A DNA stretch of 64,000 bases from Basfia succiniciproducens. GTDB lineage: Bacteria > Pseudomonadota > Gammaproteobacteria > Enterobacterales > Pasteurellaceae. Of the stretch, positions 7,009 to 49,655 are shown in pieces (position 1 is the stretch's first letter; every line of letters starts with the position of its first letter). The stretch lies in the NCBI RefSeq assembly GCF_011455875.1, contig NZ_CP015031.1, positions 1,841,405 through 1,905,404 on the forward strand, read 5' to 3'. Under the pieces are notes generated by a model. The model was not told where the DNA came from. It did not search any database and saw only the letters and a list, made by a program, of their open reading frames with translations. A program made the position numbers and the translations under genes.

Positions 7009-8221
7009 TCCGCGTCCTGTCGGCGGTCGATTAATTTCCGCATCGATTTTATTCTTCGCACCTCTTGCCGTGATTTGTTTGGCTTTAATCGTTAAACGTT
7101 TATTTTTCGGCATCGGTTCCGTAACCGCATTAAACGGCGGTTATCCCTGGGGGTTATGGATTGCCTTCGATTTATTAGTGGGAACCGGCTTTGCCTGCGG
7201 CGGTTGGGCTTTAGCCTGGACGGTTTATATTTTTAACAAAGGGAAATATCACCCGTTGGTTCGCCCCGCCTTATTAGCAAGCCTGTTTGGTTATAGTCTG
7301 GGCGGCTTATCCATTACTATTGATATGGGACGATACTGGCATTTGCCTTACTTCTTTTTGCCCGGTCAGTTTAATACGAATTCCGTGTTGTTTGAAACCG
7401 CGGTTTGTATGACTATTTACATCTGCGTGGTAACGCTGGAATTTGCGCCCGTATGGTTAGGTTTTTTCGGTTTGAAAAAACTGTTTAAAAAACTAAATAA
7501 AATTATGTTCTTCATTATTGCATTGGGCGCCTTGTTACCTATGATGCACCAATCTTCAATGGGATCATTAATGATTGTTGCCGGACATAAAGTCCACCCA
7601 GCCTGGCAAAGCTATGAAATGCTGCCGGTATTTTCCTTATTAACGGCGTTTATCATGGGATTTTCTATTGTTATTTTTGAAGGTTCGGTGGTAAAGGCAA
7701 GCCTTGCCGGTCAAGCGCCGGACGAGCGCCATTTATTCAGTCAGTTAACGAAAACCGCAGCGGTACTAATCGCATTATTCTTGATGTTCCGTTTCGGCGA
7801 ATTAATTTATAACAATAAGCTGCATTATGTTTTAGGTTTATTTAAATTTGAAGCCTGGATGTTCTGGGCGGAAGTATGGTTAATGACATTACCTCTATTG
7901 GCATTGTTCCTTGGAGAACGGCGTAATGACGGTCGTTGGTTGTTCGTTTCCGCTTTAAGCATGCTATTAGGCGCGGCGCTATGGCGTTTAGACTACTCAA
8001 TGATTATGTATAACCCGGGTAACGGCTATAAATATTTTCCTTCCGGTCAGGAATTATTAATTTCTATCGGTTTCGTGTCTATTGAAGTATGCGCCTATAT
8101 TTTAATTATTCGCTTATTCCCGGTACTACCGGTATTAAAAGAAGCAAATAAAGAAACATCAGAATATATTATCGCTGAAAAAGCGGCGTTAAGTGAAAAC
8201 TTAGCACAAAAAAATAGTTAG
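7001..8221 (+). CDS. hybB: Hydrogenase-2 membrane subunit HybB (NrfD/PsrC family)
   Basis: Integral quinone-reactive subunit of hydrogenase-2, 406 residues against about 392 in E. coli, with roughly ten hydrophobic helices and no haem-binding motif. Residues such as [12 protein letters not shown] near 46 and the MHQSSMGSL stretch near 185 are typical of HybB. It overlaps hybA by eight bases and is followed by hybC after 12 bases. Inferred role: quinone reduction by H2 during anaerobic respiration, for example with fumarate or DMSO as acceptor. Confidence 0.93.
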
Positions 8222-41719: not shown

Positions 41720-41735
41720 TGTGATTTAGCTCACA
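41720..41735 (+). promoter_or_regulatory. Perfect CRP site upstream of rhaB
   Basis: TGTGATTTAGCTCACA matches TGTGA-N6-TCACA exactly. With TACACT at 41808-41813 as -10 the implied start is near 41820, putting the CRP centre at -92.5, the position known for the E. coli rhaBAD promoter. Confidence 0.82.
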
Positions 41736-41738
41736 TTC

Positions 41739-41813
41739 ACTTTTGTTGTACTGCCAAGTTTTCAGAAAAGTGGCAATTAGGTTAATGTTTAACCTGTTTT
41801 GAGTCTTTACACT
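41739..41813 (+). promoter_or_regulatory. Candidate RhaS operator and -10 element of rhaBAD
   Basis: Counting from the start implied at 41820, positions -81 to -32 (the RhaS footprint in E. coli) are 41739-41788. This stretch holds an inverted repeat TGCCA-N14-TGGCA (41752-41756, 41771-41775) centred within it. The two 17-base half-sites agree at 9 of 17 positions when one is reverse-complemented. A second palindrome AGGTTAA-TGT-TTAACCT lies at 41779-41795. The -10 is TACACT at 41808-41813. Confidence 0.45.
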
Positions 41814-41845: not shown

Positions 41846-43294
41846 ATGACCATTCTAAATATTGCAGCGGTAGATTTAGGCGCATCAAGTGGTCGAGTGA
41901 TGTTGGCATCCTATTCTACGGAAAACCATAAAATTTCACTGGAAGAAATCCATCGTTTTAAAAATCAATTTGTCTCGCAAAACGGACATGACTGTTGGGA
42001 TTTGGCCTATCTGGAAAATGAAATTGTCAACGGATTGCGCAAAATTTCGAATAGCGGCAGAACGCTTCACAGTATCGGAATTGATACCTGGGGAGTGGAT
42101 TATGTTTTGCTTGATCAAAACGGTGAGGTTGTCGGCCCTACCTATGCCTATCGTGATCACCGTACCGACGGGGTGATGCAAAAGGTTCAGGCGGAATTAG
42201 GTAAAGAAGTCATTTACCGTAAAACCGGGATTCAGTTTTTAACCTTCAATACGCTTTATCAGCTTAAAGCCATGACGGACGAAAATCCCGCTTGGCTTTC
42301 GCAGGTGAAAGATTTTGTGATGATTCCCGACTATCTGAATTATCGCTTGACCGGCGTGATTAACCGCGAATATACCAATGCCACCACCACCCAGTTAGTT
42401 AATGTGAATATTGACAGTTGGGATACCGCACTTTTGGATTATCTCGGCTTGCCGGCAAGCTGGTTTGGTCGCATTCGTCATCCCGGCCATCAAGTGGGAT
42501 TATGGGAAAACCGGGTTCCCGTTATGTCCGTAGCAAGTCACGACACCGCAAGTGCGGTCATTTCTGCGCCGCTTTCCGATGAAAACGCCGCATATCTTTG
42601 TTCCGGTACCTGGTCGTTAATGGGGTTAGACACCACCACGCCATGTACCGATGAGCACGCAATGAATGCCAATATTACCAACGAAGGCGGTATTGACGGG
42701 CATTATCGGGTGTTAAAAAACATTATGGGATTATGGTTGTTTAACCGCCTTTGCACGGAACGCGATGTAACCGATATTCCGGCGCTGGTAAAACAAGCTG
42801 AGGCAGAACTTCCGTTTCAAAGTCTGATTAATCCTAATGCCGAATGTTTCTTAAATCCGTCGTCTATGGTTGAGGCAATTCAGCAATATTGTCGCGAACA
42901 CAATCAAGTGATACCGAAAACCACAGCTCAACTTGCTCGTTGCATTTTTGACAGCCTCGCCATGCTATACCGCAAAGTGGCGTTAGAACTTGCCGGATTA
43001 CAAGGCAAACCAATCAGTGCATTACATATTGTAGGTGGTGGCAGCCAGAATGCATTTTTAAACCAGCTATGCGCCGATCTTTGCGGTATTGATGTGTTTG
43101 CGGGACCGGTGGAGGCGTCGGTGCTGGGAAATGTGGGTTGCCAGCTAATGGCGTTAGATCAAATCCATAATGCCGCAGAGTTTCGTCAGTTAGTGGTGAA
43201 AAATTTTCCGTTAAAACAGTTCAAAAAACGACCGCACTTTATGCCGGCTTCAGACTTTGAAGAAAAATGGCGTGAGTTTTGCGCGTTAAATTAA
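41846..43294 (+). CDS. rhaB: L-rhamnulokinase
   Basis: Phosphorylates L-rhamnulose to rhamnulose-1-phosphate with ATP; FGGY-family carbohydrate kinase. 482 residues (E. coli 489). N-terminal phosphate-binding motif AAVDLGASSGRVMLA at 7-21, GIDTWGVDYVLL near 79, the SHDTASAV region near 231 and the C-terminal IVGGGSQN near 394. First gene of a six-gene rhamnose unit, with rhaA 25 bases downstream. Confidence 0.96.
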   Translation: MTILNIAAVDLGASSGRVMLASYSTENHKISLEEIHRFKNQFVSQNGHDCWDLAYLENEIVNGLRKISNSGRTLHSIGIDTWGVDYVLLDQNGEVVGPTYAYRDHRTDGVMQKVQAELGKEVIYRKTGIQFLTFNTLYQLKAMTDENPAWLSQVKDFVMIPDYLNYRLTGVINREYTNATTTQLVNVNIDSWDTALLDYLGLPASWFGRIRHPGHQVGLWENRVPVMSVASHDTASAVISAPLSDENAAYLCSGTWSLMGLDTTTPCTDEHAMNANITNEGGIDGHYRVLKNIMGLWLFNRLCTERDVTDIPALVKQAEAELPFQSLINPNAECFLNPSSMVEAIQQYCREHNQVIPKTTAQLARCIFDSLAMLYRKVALELAGLQGKPISALHIVGGGSQNAFLNQLCADLCGIDVFAGPVEASVLGNVGCQLMALDQIHNAAEFRQLVVKNFPLKQFKKRPHFMPASDFEEKWREFCALN

Positions 43295-43319: not shown

Positions 43320-44573
43320 ATGAGTACAGTACAACAAGCTTATGAATTAGCTAAAAAACAATTTGCCGATATTGGGGTGGATACCGAGCAAGCATTGGCG
43401 CTACTTGATCAATTGCCTATTTCCATGCACTGCTGGCAAGGGGACGACGTGTCGGGTTTCGAGCAAGGTGCGGGAGCATTAAGCGGCGGTATTCAGACCA
43501 CTGGGAACTATCCGGGCAAGGCCCGTACGCCGCAAGAATTGCGGGCGGATTTGGATAAAGCCGTTTCTTTAATTCCCGGTAAAAAACGGTTGAATTTACA
43601 CGCTTCTTATTTGGAAGCGGATCATCGGGTGGATCGCAACGAAGTAAAACCCGAGCATTTTGCTAACTGGGTGGCATGGGCGAAAGCTAATAATATGGGA
43701 TTGGATTTCAACCCTACCTATTTCAGCCATCCTTTAAGTGCGGAGGCGACATTAAGCCATCAAAATAAAGAAATCCGCGACTTCTGGATCGAACACGGGA
43801 AAGCCTGTCGCAAAATTTCCGAATATTTCGGTAAAGAACTCGGTACGGCTTCCGTCATGAATATCTGGATTCCGGACGGTAGCAAAGATTTGGTGGTGGA
43901 TAAATTTGCACCCCGTCAACGCTTGGTTGAAGCTTTAGATGAAATCATTGCAGAGAAAATCGATGCGAAATATCACTTGGATGCGGTGGAAAGCAAACTA
44001 TTCGGTATCGGGGTGGAATCTTATACCGTCGGATCCAATGAATTTTATGCAGCTTATGCGGTGTCGCGCGGCACGGCGCTTTGCCTGGATGCAGGGCATT
44101 TTCACCCGACAGAGGTGATTTCCGACAAAATTTCCGCGGTTATGCCTTTTGTGCAACATTTGCTTTTACACGTCAGCCGCCCGGTACGTTGGGACAGTGA
44201 CCACGTGGTGCTGCTTGACGACGAAACACAAGCCATTGCCGGAGAAATTATCCGTAATCAATTATTTGACCGCGTGCATATCGGTTTAGATTTCTTCGAT
44301 GCCTCAATTAACCGTATCGCTGCCTGGGTAATCGGAATGCGCAATATGCAAAAAGCTTTATTAAGAGCATTACTGGAACCTACCGACGAATTACGTGCGC
44401 TGGAAAACGCTCGTGATTTCGGCAGCCGTTTAGCTTTACTGGAAGAACAAAAATCCCTTCCGTGGCAGGCTGTGTGGGATATGTATTGCGAACGTCACAA
44501 CGTGCCGGTCGGTCGTCGTTGGTTAGACGAAGTCCGCGCTTATGAAAAAACCGTATTAAGTCAACGTGTGTAA
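43320..44573 (+). CDS. rhaA: L-rhamnose isomerase
   Basis: Converts L-rhamnose to L-rhamnulose; metal-dependent TIM-barrel isomerase. 417 residues (E. coli 419). Recognisable by QISMHCW-like [16 protein letters not shown] near 33-49, MNIWIPDG near 180, and the metal-binding [14 protein letters not shown] and [16 protein letters not shown] segments. Complete. Confidence 0.96.
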
Positions 44574-44582
44574 GGAGTAAGC

Positions 44583-45401
44583 ATGCAAAATATTATTAAT
44601 TCCTGGTTTGTGCAAGGCATGATTAAAGCCACTCACGATATGTGGCTGAAAGGTTGGGATGAACGCAACGGAGGTAACGTCAGCCTGCGTTTATTGGATG
44701 ATGATGTGGTTTCATATAAAGACGAGTTTTATCAAAATCCCCGTCATGTGGAAATTACCCAAAATATTACCGCACTTGCCAATCAATATTTTATCGTCAC
44801 GGGGTCGGGAAAATTTTTTCGCAATGTGATTATTGACCCGGCGGATACGCTGGCGGTAATTAAAGTGGACGAACAAGGTAAAGGTTATTACATCATGTGG
44901 GGGCTGGTAAACGGCGGCGTACCCACTTCGGAATTACCCGCACACCTGCAATCGCATATTGTGCGAATGAAAGTGAGTGGCGGCAAAGATCGCGTGATTA
45001 TGCACTGCCATGCCACTAATCTGATTGCCTTAACTTATGTACTTGAGCTTGACCCGAAAGTGATCACCCGCGAGCTATGGGAAATGAGTACCGAATGTCT
45101 TGTGGTATTCCCTGACGGTGTAGGGGTATTGCCTTGGATGACGCCGGGAAAAGATGAAATCGGCTATGCCACCGCGCAGGAAATGGCGCAACATCCGCTG
45201 GTGTTGTGGGCCTTTCATGGCGTATTCGGTACCGGTCCGACATTGGATGACGCCTTCGGTTTAATCGATACGGCGGAAAAATCCGCTGAGATTTTAGTGA
45301 AAGTGCTATCCATGGGGGGTAAACGGCAAACCATTCAAACCGATGAATTCAAATTATTAGCGGAACGTTTCGGCGTTACACCGATGGACGGCGTTTTATA
45401 A
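44583..45401 (+). CDS. rhaD: Rhamnulose-1-phosphate aldolase
   Basis: Zinc class II aldolase cleaving rhamnulose-1-P into dihydroxyacetone phosphate and L-lactaldehyde. 272 residues. Zinc ligands lie in [10 protein letters not shown] near 139-148 and the FHGVFG motif near 212; the catalytic Glu is in [10 protein letters not shown] near 117. Nine bases after rhaA. A terminator-like hairpin follows before rhaT. Confidence 0.95.
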
Positions 45402-45406
45402 ATAAA

Positions 45407-45435
45407 CGGCTCGGCCGGATGCCGAGCCGCTTTTT
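45407..45435 (+). terminator. Terminator-like hairpin inside the rha unit, after rhaD
   Basis: CGGCTCGGC and its exact complement GCCGAGCCG around CGGAT, then C and TTTTT. It would reduce transcription into rhaT-fucO-rhaM relative to rhaBAD, or end the rhaBAD mRNA. No strong promoter is obvious in the remaining 55 bases before rhaT. Confidence 0.8.
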
Positions 45436-45492
45436 AAAGTGCGGTCAAAAATTTAAAAGTTTTTTAAAGAGATTCAAAACAGGAGTCATATT

Positions 45493-46329
45493 ATGGGCGG
45501 TTCAATTTTACTGGGCATTTTTTGGCATTTCGTCGGTGCGACTTCGGCGGCTTGTTTCTACGCACCAATGAAAAAGGTGACTAACTGGTCTTGGGAAACC
45601 ATGTGGGCAATTGCGGGAATTTTCTCCTGGATTTTATTACCATGGGGGATCAGTTATTGGTTATTGCCCGATTTCGGTAGTTATTATTCATTCTTTGGCA
45701 GTGATATTTTATTACCGGTTTTCCTTTTCGGCGCAATGTGGGGGATTGGTAATATCGGTTACGGCTTGACTATGCGCTATCTCGGTATGTCAATGGGGAT
45801 TGGGATTGCCATCGGCATTACATTGATCGTGGGTACCTTAATGACTCCGATTATTCAGGGGCGTTTCGGCGAGTTATTGGCAAGTACAGGCGGACAAATG
45901 ACCTTAATCGGCGTGGATCCGCTGTATGTCGCCTTGCCTAGCTATGTCGTGATTATGGGTGGCGGCGCTATTATCAATTTAGGTTTTTGTATTATCCGTT
46001 TAATCACCCGTCCGGAATTATCCTTCAAAGCGGATATGAGTGTGGTAAAAGGTTTATTAATCAGTAATATTTTGTTCTCCGCACTCGGCGGTATCATGTG
46101 GTATTTCCAATTTTTCTTCTATGCCTGGGGCCATGCCAATATTCCGGCAAATTACGGCTTTATGAGCTGGATGTTACACATGAGTTTCTACGTTCTTTGC
46201 GGCGGTATTGTGGGTTTACTCCTGCATGAATGGAAGGATACGGGTAAGAAACCGACAAGAGTGTTGTGTATCGGTTGCTTAATTATCGTGTTGGCTGCCA
46301 ATATTGTCGGTTTAGGTATGGCGAATTAG
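45493..46329 (+). CDS. rhaT: L-rhamnose-proton symporter RhaT, internally shortened
   Basis: Rhamnose/H+ symporter, but only 278 residues where the E. coli protein has 344. The N-terminal part ([20 protein letters not shown] to GGQMTLIGV) and the C-terminal part ([17 protein letters not shown] onward) both align well with E. coli RhaT. About 66 residues, which hold two membrane helices in E. coli, are missing between GV at about 45910-45915 and DPLYV. The reading frame is kept and the helix count stays even, so a folded protein is possible, but transport activity is doubtful. The comparison rests on my memory of the E. coli sequence. ATG with a GGAG ribosome site. Confidence 0.85.
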
Positions 46330-46359: not shown

Positions 46360-47511
46360 ATGTCAAACAGATTTATTTTAAACGAAACCGCTTATTTCGG
46401 CGCCGGGTCAATTCAACATATTGTCACCGAAGTACAAAAACGCGGTTTTACGAAAGGGTTAATTGTTACCGATAAATCATTGATTCAATTTAAAGTGGTG
46501 GAAAAAGTGACCGCACTTTTAGAGGGTGCCAATCTGGCTTATGAGATTTTTGACGAAGTATTGCCGAATCCGACCATGAATGTGGTAAAAGCGGGACTTG
46601 CTAAATTTAAAGCGAGCGGTGCGGATTATATGATTGCGATCGGCGGAGGTTCGCCGCAGGATACCGCGAAAGCTATCGGCATTATCGTCAATAATCCGGA
46701 GTTTGCGGATATTCGCAGTCTGGAAGGGACTGCGCCGACGAAAAAACCGGCGGTACCTACCATTGCGGTGCCGACTACGGCGGGAACGGCCGCGGAAGTT
46801 ACCATTAATTATGTGATTACCGATGAAGAGAACAAACGTAAATTCGTTTGTGTGGATCCTCATTCCATTCCGGTCGTGGCTGTGATTGACAGCGAGATGA
46901 TGGCCAGTATGCCGCCGACCTTAAAAGCGGCAACCGGGGTGGATGCACTGACTCACGCTATTGAAGGTTTCATCACCTTGGGCGCCTGGGAACTTTCCGA
47001 TATGTTCCATCTGAAGGCTATTGAAATTATTGCCCGCGCTTTGCGTTCCTCGGTTAAAGGCGAGCAACAGGGAGTGGAAGATATGGCATTAGGGCAATAC
47101 GTCGCGGGTATGGGCTTCTCAAATGTGGGCTTAGGATTAGTACATGGTATGGCACATCCGTTAGGCGCGTTTTACGGCACACCGCACGGTGTCGCTAATG
47201 CCGTATTGCTGCCTCATATTATGGCGTATAACGCAGATTTCACCGGAGACAAGTTCCGTGCAATTGCTAAAGCCATGGGGGTACGGAATACGGAAAACCT
47301 CTCTATTGAACAAGCAAGAGTTGCAGCCGTTGAAGCGGTAAAAACCTTAAATAAAGATGTGGGTATTCCGGCTACATTACGTGAAGTGGGTGTGAAAGAA
47401 GAGGATATTCCCGAACTCGCCAAAGCGGCTTTTGCCGATGTTTGTACCGGAGGAAATCCGAGACCAACTTCGGTAAATGAGATTGAACGGTTATATCGGG
47501 CTATTTATTAA
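46360..47511 (+). CDS. fucO: Lactaldehyde reductase (L-1,2-propanediol oxidoreductase)
   Basis: Iron-dependent alcohol dehydrogenase reducing L-lactaldehyde to 1,2-propanediol with NADH, which regenerates NAD under anaerobic growth on rhamnose or fucose. 383 residues, as in E. coli. NAD motif [11 protein letters not shown] near 96-106; iron ligands in [12 protein letters not shown] (near 194-205) and [17 protein letters not shown] (near 263-279). Its placement inside the rha unit matches lactaldehyde being a rhamnose product. Confidence 0.94.
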
Positions 47512-47521
47512 GGAGAGTACG

Positions 47522-47836
47522 ATGATTCGAAAAGGTTTTGTTATGCAGGTTAATCCCGATTGTCATGCGGAATATAAAAAACGCCACGATGAAATTTTTC
47601 CCGAATTAGTGGAAGAACTGAAATCCCATGGCGCTCATCATTATTCTATTTTTCTGGATAAACAACGGAACCTGTTATTCGGGTATGTGGAGATTGAAAA
47701 CGAGCAACGCTGGAACGATGTGGCAAAAACCGCCGCTTGCCGGAAATGGTGGGCGTTTATGCGGGATGTTATGCCTTCAAATCCTGATAACAGCCCGGTT
47801 TCACAGGAATTAGAGCAGGTATTTTATTTGGATTAA
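47522..47836 (+). CDS. rhaM: L-rhamnose mutarotase
   Basis: Interconverts alpha and beta anomers of L-rhamnose. 104 residues from the ATG at 47522 (AGGAGAG upstream), the same length as E. coli RhaM. Visible family residues: [29 protein letters not shown] and the WWAFMRDVM segment. An upstream in-frame ATG at 47477 lies inside fucO and is not used. Last gene of the rha unit. Confidence 0.94.
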
Positions 47837-47855: not shown

Positions 47856-47884
47856 AAATGAGCTGAAATTCAGCTCATTTTTTT
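47856..47884. terminator. Bidirectional terminator between rhaM and rhaR
   Basis: AAATGAGCTGA / TCAGCTCATTT with a three-base loop, followed by TTTTTT on the plus strand. It overlaps the last codons of rhaR on the minus strand. Confidence 0.82.
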
Positions 47885-48705
47885 ATGAAACGGGATCGGT
47901 ATTCGGTTGGCGTACAGGAAAAAGTTTTGCCAAAAACAGAGGAAAAATAATTACTATCGCTGTAACCGCAGCGTATAGCAATATTGGCGACACTTTCTGA
48001 TGTATTACGTAAAAGCGTAGCAGCCCGACACAAACGCAGTTTTTGTAAATATTGCGCAATAGTCATGTTGGTTTGTTGTTTGAATATCCGACGAACAGAA
48101 CTGACTGCCAACTGGTTTTGTCGGCAAAAATCAGCTAAATAAAATTCTTGGCTAATACTTTGATTTAAGGCGGAAAACAGGCTTTCTAATTTGGATATAT
48201 CGGAATACTCTTTATTTTCCTGCTGCTGAGTTCGACAAATTAAAATAAGGATTTGTAAAAAAATCGCTTCTGATAAGTGCATGGAAGATTTATTGGTTTT
48301 TTTGCTTTCAATTTCCAATTGAGAAATTAGGCTTTGTAGCTGCACCAGCGTTTCCTGATTAATACGCAAAGACTTCTTTTCATTATTATGAGGAATATAA
48401 TCTTTCATTATGGGGAAAAGCGACAGTTTCTCCGGGCGGTACAATATGTTATCAAGTTTAAGCTTATCCACCTCGCCGTACTTGTGTTTATCACCGCTTT
48501 CTATATAAAGCACATTTCCGGTGGTAATAGGATGTATTTCATCATTCCAAAAATGAATTCCATTGCCGGCAGAGATAATCACAATTTCATTAAAATCATG
48601 TCGATGTAAAGGAAAGGGTGGTTGGTAATGCCTTCTTTCTACGGTAATAGGCGATTCTTCGGAAATAAAATAGCTATGATGAGAAAGTTGCAATATGTCT
48701 GTCAT
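47875..48705 (-). CDS. rhaR: AraC-family rhamnose regulator RhaR
   Basis: Transcription activator that in E. coli responds to rhamnose and turns on rhaSR. 276 residues: cupin-like sugar-binding N-terminus (PPFPLHRHDFNEIVII, DKHKYGEVDKL) and two helix-turn-helix units at the C-terminus (FYLADFCRQNQLAVSSVRRIFKQ and SVANIAIRCGYSDSNYFSSVF). It reads as intact. The start lies one base after the stop that the frameshifted rhaS would have had, so the two form one unit. Confidence 0.88.
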   Translation of the reverse strand: MTDILQLSHHSYFISEESPITVERRHYQPPFPLHRHDFNEIVIISAGNGIHFWNDEIHPITTGNVLYIESGDKHKYGEVDKLKLDNILYRPEKLSLFPIMKDYIPHNNEKKSLRINQETLVQLQSLISQLEIESKKTNKSSMHLSEAIFLQILILICRTQQQENKEYSDISKLESLFSALNQSISQEFYLADFCRQNQLAVSSVRRIFKQQTNMTIAQYLQKLRLCRAATLLRNTSESVANIAIRCGYSDSNYFSSVFGKTFSCTPTEYRSRFIKK

Positions 48706-48706
48706 G

Positions 48707-49514
48707 TCAAATTCTTAATTCTCTTGGCGCAATAGAATATTCATTTTTAAAACAAGTTGAAAAGTAACTGCTATCATTAAATCCGCAATCATAAGCGATG
48801 TTAATAATATTTTTCTCAGTATATTTTAATTGATAATAAGCCTGTGCCAGTCTTAATTTATGTTACATAATTCTGCGGAGTATGGCCGGTTTGAGATTTA
48901 ATATAACGATGTAACGTTCTGATTGGTAATGCAAATTTTTCAGCAAGTTCTTCCCAGTCTATTTCTTTCTCAAAATTATTTTCTAACCAACGTATCATTT
49001 GCCGCCCCTTTTCTTCCGTGTTTCCATAACCCGAATCATTAAATTGATGAGCCTGGATTGATGATAATACTTGAAAGAATAGGCATTCGTTCTGCAAATT
49101 ATACGACTCGTCAATAGCATTAATTTTTTCTAATAACGAGTCGATATATTCCGCCGTTTTTTTATTTATTAATTGGTATGAAGAATTTTCCGGTTTTAAA
49201 CCGTTAAGCAATATATCAATATTATTCAAATACTTAAAGTTATTATTTGATTGGATAAGTATGTTGGTTAAACATAAGTCTTGCAGGTTTTCATAGGAAT
49301 GGTGATCTTGGGCTTGAATATATAAAACGACACCGGGATAAAGATCGTGCGGATATCCGTTTAAAATATGCCACCCGGATCCATGCTTTACTATAACCAA
49401 TTCATCAAAATCATGAGTATGCTCCGGGAATATTTCCTGTGGGGCGCGAGGCTCTAAAATTATCGGTTGTTCTTTATTATTAAAGAAATCTCTCGCTAAT
49501 AATTTTTGAATCAT
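48707..49514 (-). pseudogene. rhaS: Frameshifted AraC-family rhamnose regulator RhaS
   Basis: RhaS is the direct activator of rhaBAD and rhaT in E. coli. The N-terminal 218 residues are in frame and match RhaS (EPRAPQEIFPEHTHDFDE, LCLTNIL, the first helix-turn-helix LAEKFALPIRTLHRYIKSQTGHTPQNY). The frame then hits TAA at 48858. Continuing in the next frame from about 48865 restores the missing domain: HKLRLAQAYYQL, NIINIAYDCGFNDSSYFSTCF and a stop at 48707, one base before rhaR. A two-base loss near 48860-48866 explains this. As read, the product lacks the second helix-turn-helix and should not work. A sequencing error is possible. No slippery heptamer is present to suggest programmed frameshifting. 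Confidence 0.87.
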
Positions 49515-49541: not shown

Positions 49542-49655
49542 ATTCTATCTGTATCCGTTTTTTATTTTCCTTAAGAAAATGGACCTTAAACTCAGAAATT
49601 TGGTCATATTTTCAAGAAATAAGCACTTTTTTTTAAAATTGTGATTAATATCACA
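49542..49655 (-). promoter_or_regulatory. CRP site and -10 element of the rhaSR unit
   Basis: TGTGATTAATATCACA at 49640-49655 is a perfect CRP site. On the minus strand TAGAAT (49547 to 49542, 5 of 6) is a likely -10, giving a start near 49535 and a CRP centre near -112; E. coli rhaSR has CRP at about -111.5. The short leader folds as CCCTTA/TAAGGG over the AGGGGG ribosome site of rhaS. The remainder of the 241-bp gap to gpmA holds only the gpmA terminator. Confidence 0.68.

Follow-up and report, generated by a model that had tools for sequence, protein, structure and literature searches.

A frameshifted rhaS and an internally deleted rhaT suggest early decay of L-rhamnose catabolism in Basfia succiniciproducens

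Damaged rhamnose regulators and transporters have been described in E. coli. In E. coli O26:H11 (strain 11368 and bovine O26 STEC), a single-base insertion in rhaS truncates the activator RhaS (PMC10132054, PMC7354573). This frameshift was offered as the cause of failed L-rhamnose use, and one strain was rhamnose-negative (PMC10132054). E. coli CC119 (O165:H25/O172:H25) carries a frameshift in rhaR and, in some clades, in-frame changes in rhaT or rhaB (PMC10132054). Frameshifts of rhaS and rhaR in E. coli accompany a loss or delay of rhamnose use (PMC7354573, PMC10132054), and O157 strains whose RhaT is truncated were still able to use the sugar (PMC7354573). Moreover, the biovars of Yersinia pestis are told apart by a rhaS allele (PMC12445494). 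With E. coli RhaR but without RhaS, PrhaBAD did not respond to rhamnose in a Gluconobacter oxydans host (PMC9429829). In [Mannheimia] succiniciproducens, MS2322–MS2329 follow the order rhaS, rhaR, two genes, rhaT and rhaBAD (PMC3091790), which was compared by numbering only. No literature was found on whether Basfia or Mannheimia succiniciproducens grows on rhamnose.

The locus analyzed here is in a stretch of 64,000 nucleotides from Basfia succiniciproducens, hereafter the window, whose genome is a Pasteurellaceae genome of 2.25 Mb in a single contig that is 100% complete. The genes rhaB-rhaA-rhaD-rhaT-fucO-rhaM are on the forward strand and face rhaS-rhaR on the reverse strand. The genes for rhamnulokinase (rhaB, 41846–43294), L-rhamnose isomerase (rhaA, 43320–44573), rhamnulose-1-phosphate aldolase (rhaD, 44583–45401), lactaldehyde reductase (fucO, 46360–47511) and L-rhamnose mutarotase (rhaM, 47522–47836) were all intact. 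The gene for the AraC-family regulator RhaR (47875–48705, reverse strand) was also full-length and encoded a complete helix-turn-helix (HTH) region. The window was compared with 15 relatives from Pasteurellaceae, giving a set of 16 loci. Relatives with a rha locus included Chelonobacter, Conservatibacter, Cricetibacter, Testudinibacter, Necropsobacter, Caviibacterium, Lonepinella and Actinobacillus sp. GY-402.

Upstream of rhaB, a putative RhaS operator, TGCCA-N14-TGGCA (41752–41775, forward strand), and a putative CRP site, TGTGATTTAGCTCACA (41720–41735, forward strand), were both intact. The relatives also possessed the operator element in a similar place 5' of rhaB, of which several were imperfect. 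Upstream of rhaS, a putative CRP site, TGTGATATTAATCACA (49640–49655), and a putative RhaR operator, GACC-N16-GGTC (49582–49605), were found on the reverse strand. The predicted half-sites of the RhaS site at rhaB differed from those of the RhaR site at rhaS. No Rfam element was found at the rha locus. Between rhaD and rhaT, a strong terminator-like hairpin (45407–45450) was followed by AAGTGCGGTCA, which resembles the DNA-uptake signal of Pasteurellaceae. In several relatives, paired uptake signals form a hairpin at the same position, and the hairpin was thus dismissed as a third lesion of the locus.

The rhaS open reading frame (ORF; 48858–49514, reverse strand) encodes 218 amino acid residues, comprising the cupin sugar-binding domain and the first HTH, and ends with TPQNYVT and a premature TAA after codon 218. 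What remains of the AraC-type domain (KLRLAQAYYQLKYTEKNIINIAYDCGFNDSSYFSTCFKNEYSIAPRELRI) is encoded in the +1 frame (48707–48859, reverse strand), which contains the second HTH and the C terminus and runs to the stop at 48707–48709; one base separates this original stop from the start of rhaR at 48705. Our reading of the ORFs thus agreed with an earlier note on this DNA with regard to the stop at 48858, the continuation of the second HTH in the next frame to 48707 and the distance of one base to rhaR. The genetic context is that of rhaS, in an operon with rhaR and linked to rhaBAD-rhaT. The ORF matched only positions 2–221 of 278 of the NCBIfam RhaS model NF010028, and its score of 284.6 bits was below the equivalog cut-off of 288 bits. 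The ligand-binding domain was kept (PF02311, residues 20–150, E 8.7e-10). No Pfam HTH_18 was found in the ORF, while it was present in the next frame, so that the ORF lacks the double HTH of an AraC/XylS-family activator. The first HTH, including the equivalents of R202 and R206 of E. coli RhaS, was spared by the lesion, and the second was lost entirely. The equivalents of E. coli D241, D250 and N252 lie beyond the truncation point. According to what Egan and colleagues reportedly found for E. coli RhaS, these three residues contact sigma-70 and DNA.

The frame of rhaS was open in 14 of the 15 relatives, the exception being Haemophilus massiliensis with a stop at codon 57. The rhaS of the window, whose frame is disrupted relative to open orthologues, is in this respect a pseudogene, and the partial match to NF010028 and the missing HTH_18 likewise agreed with the earlier view that rhaS is broken and its second HTH lost. 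The DNA alignment, however, did not support the two-base loss that had been proposed as the cause. At the same column by the break, all 15 relatives were one base shorter than the window; the other internal gaps of the alignment had lengths divisible by three, and Y-V-x-K-L-R-L was spaced in RhaS of the window as in every relative. Thus, the event was a net gain of one base, located at 48855–48866 (reverse strand). A loss of two bases would give the same frame, but was ruled out by this alignment. Neither a tandem repeat nor a homopolymer of at least four bases was found at the site. Phase variation by a tandem repeat was therefore rejected, and a split gene with a separate start for the second HTH was rejected as well, given that the +1 frame contains no ATG, GTG or TTG from the break to the stop. 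With no such run, repeat or usable downstream start, programmed shifting is similarly unlikely.

The rhaT gene, which encodes the L-rhamnose/proton symporter (45493–46329, forward strand), contained a second lesion that was absent from the earlier note. RhaT of the window has 278 amino acid residues, compared with 344 in E. coli K-12 and in those relatives in which it is intact. The difference is a clean in-frame gap of 198 bp that was unique among the 16 loci; the 66 residues missing from the window were present in all 15 relatives. The symporter is thus incomplete, lacking model positions about 142–204 of 344, and according to a hydropathy scan, the deleted part would contain two membrane segments. 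At the junction (45905–45914, forward strand) there is a GGCGT repeat, which in some relatives flanks the segment on either side, as would be expected from slippage between short direct repeats. A second RhaT was not found elsewhere in the genome of the window. The other listed ORFs of the window showed no evident breaks as judged by ORF length only. Thus, two broken genes in one pathway are a notable cluster.

Taken together, these results suggest, with good but not full confidence, that rhaS is a genuine and recent pseudogene and that, with the rhaT deletion, it marks an early stage at which this lineage is losing L-rhamnose catabolism step by step. The one-base gain late in rhaS would truncate RhaS after the first HTH, so that the protein would lack its second DNA-contacting motif as well as the region touching sigma-70 in E. 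coli, and the separate in-frame deletion would take two membrane helices from the importer RhaT. The activator and the importer would then have been damaged first, while the enzymes are still intact. As far as can be judged from sequence, the prediction that RhaS would fail to activate rhaBAD was supported, as the truncated RhaS is presumably unable to do so. The shortened RhaT presumably does not transport, and the strain would be rhamnose-negative or grow very slowly on rhamnose. Most likely, rhamnose would no longer induce rhaBAD expression, and its uptake would be weak or absent. Translation of rhaR may also drop, because ribosomes on rhaS would now terminate about 150 bases short of the rhaR start. 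Few private changes were found at otherwise invariant positions of the enzymes (0 in RhaB, 1 in RhaA and 0 in RhaD), which is low in the range among the relatives; the remaining part of RhaT had none, and these counts were within the range of intact loci. Given these few changes in the enzymes and the retained promoter elements of rhaB, the losses look recent; either they are so, or the enzymes may still be in use. Intact rhaBAD alone is thus no ground for annotating the strain as rhamnose-positive. Elsewhere in the same genome, an isolated remnant of an AraC-type HTH with an open frame of 33 residues was observed (L008 1501–1587; G000:C1:1670369–1670455), which is probably another decayed regulator.

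There is a small chance that the break in rhaS is a sequencing or assembly error, in which case the gene would be intact in the living strain and rhaT alone would be damaged. Single-base indels are frequent in assemblies, and the rhaS allele rests on one genome of the species. In addition, the remaining frame is little decayed: 39 of 50 residues of the out-of-frame second HTH were identical to those of RhaS of Chelonobacter oris, the nearest relative, which is far above chance. The break site, however, is free of the homopolymers and repeats looked for above, and the single complete contig and the seemingly unbroken other ORFs of the window also speak against an error. Moreover, RhaS carried three private changes upstream of the break at sites where the 15 relatives are all identical, the second-highest count. 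Finally, the rhaT deletion is independent, affects the same pathway and cannot be a base-call error, which makes such an error less likely as the whole story.

Lesions of the rha locus were also observed in other members of the family. A scan of named genomes with the truncated RhaS protein gave no matches, and when nine aligned intact relatives served as the query, 14 loci were identified, of which 13 correspond to relatives of the comparison set. In the draft genome of H. massiliensis FF7 (G133, L088/L113), similar to the window, rhaS and rhaT are both broken and rhaBAD and rhaM are intact. Different from the window, the lesions are a nonsense codon in rhaS (L088 5123–5770, codon 57) and, close to the start of rhaT (L088 9659–10689), a frameshift of one base, and have thus arisen independently. 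The joint loss of rhaS and rhaT in the window is therefore a second independent case in one family. If two broken rhaS and two broken rhaT were distributed independently among 16 loci, the chance of their coincidence in the same two genomes would be 1 in 120, a figure that ignores relatedness and possible draft errors in H. massiliensis. It is conceivable, though quite unlikely, that loss of the rhamnose pathway in Pasteurellaceae repeatedly takes the same course, with activator and importer disappearing jointly and the enzymes staying under selection, perhaps through basal use of RhaBAD on another sugar or internal rhamnose. Among the other relatives, Caviibacterium pharyngocola (G034) had a frameshift in rhaA at about codon 345 (L090 about 8018–8021), with its other rha genes open, and rhaS of Necropsobacter rosorum (L087 5047–5733) had an in-frame tandem duplication of ~13 residues (NILFQSYDFQYIA) in the N-terminal domain. 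Besides the genome of the window, the searches covered a single genome of the genus (G001). It had no RhaS or RhaT match, and its gene next beyond gpmA was unrelated, as would be expected if the locus was lost or is absent there.

It is also very improbable that the operon still works, with rhaBAD activated by RhaR or the truncated RhaS and rhamnose imported through the shortened RhaT or a different transporter, which would account for the intact enzymes. The full-length RhaR with its complete HTH and the conserved enzymes and rhaB promoter are in its favor. Given that the O157 strains with truncated RhaT used rhamnose (PMC7354573), some function may remain in the shortened RhaT, or a different importer may take over. 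However, RhaR probably cannot replace RhaS, because the predicted operators of the two differ and RhaR without RhaS gave no response at PrhaBAD in G. oxydans (PMC9429829). The O26:H11 strain with a rhaS frameshift was rhamnose-negative (PMC10132054), and the intact enzymes are equally explained by recent loss. Hardly credible is restoration of full-length RhaS by programmed or phase-variable frameshifting: the frame after the break is preserved right up to the last codons of rhaS, but all 15 relatives encode RhaS across the site without a shift, the site has no simple repeat or slippery run, and the +1 shift would be needed at ACA-TAA, where upstream tRNA re-pairing would be poor.

Step-wise decay of rhamnose catabolism, which remains the preferred explanation, has counterparts in the described systems. 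Similar to E. coli O26:H11, a single-base insertion truncates RhaS in the window. Different from O26:H11, which belongs to another genus, rhaT of the window is damaged too. In E. coli CC119, a broken regulator is also combined with in-frame lesions of rhaT or rhaB in a step-wise loss of rhamnose fermentation, but the regulator affected is RhaR rather than RhaS and the rhaT lesion is a 6-bp insertion rather than a 198-bp deletion. [Mannheimia] succiniciproducens MS2322–MS2329 resembles the window in gene order by locus number and has annotated RhaS and RhaT (PMC3091790). Apart from the joint damage to rhaS and rhaT, which is its noteworthy part, the locus described here probably represents ordinary decay of a sugar pathway, of a kind already reported in E. 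coli STEC strains.
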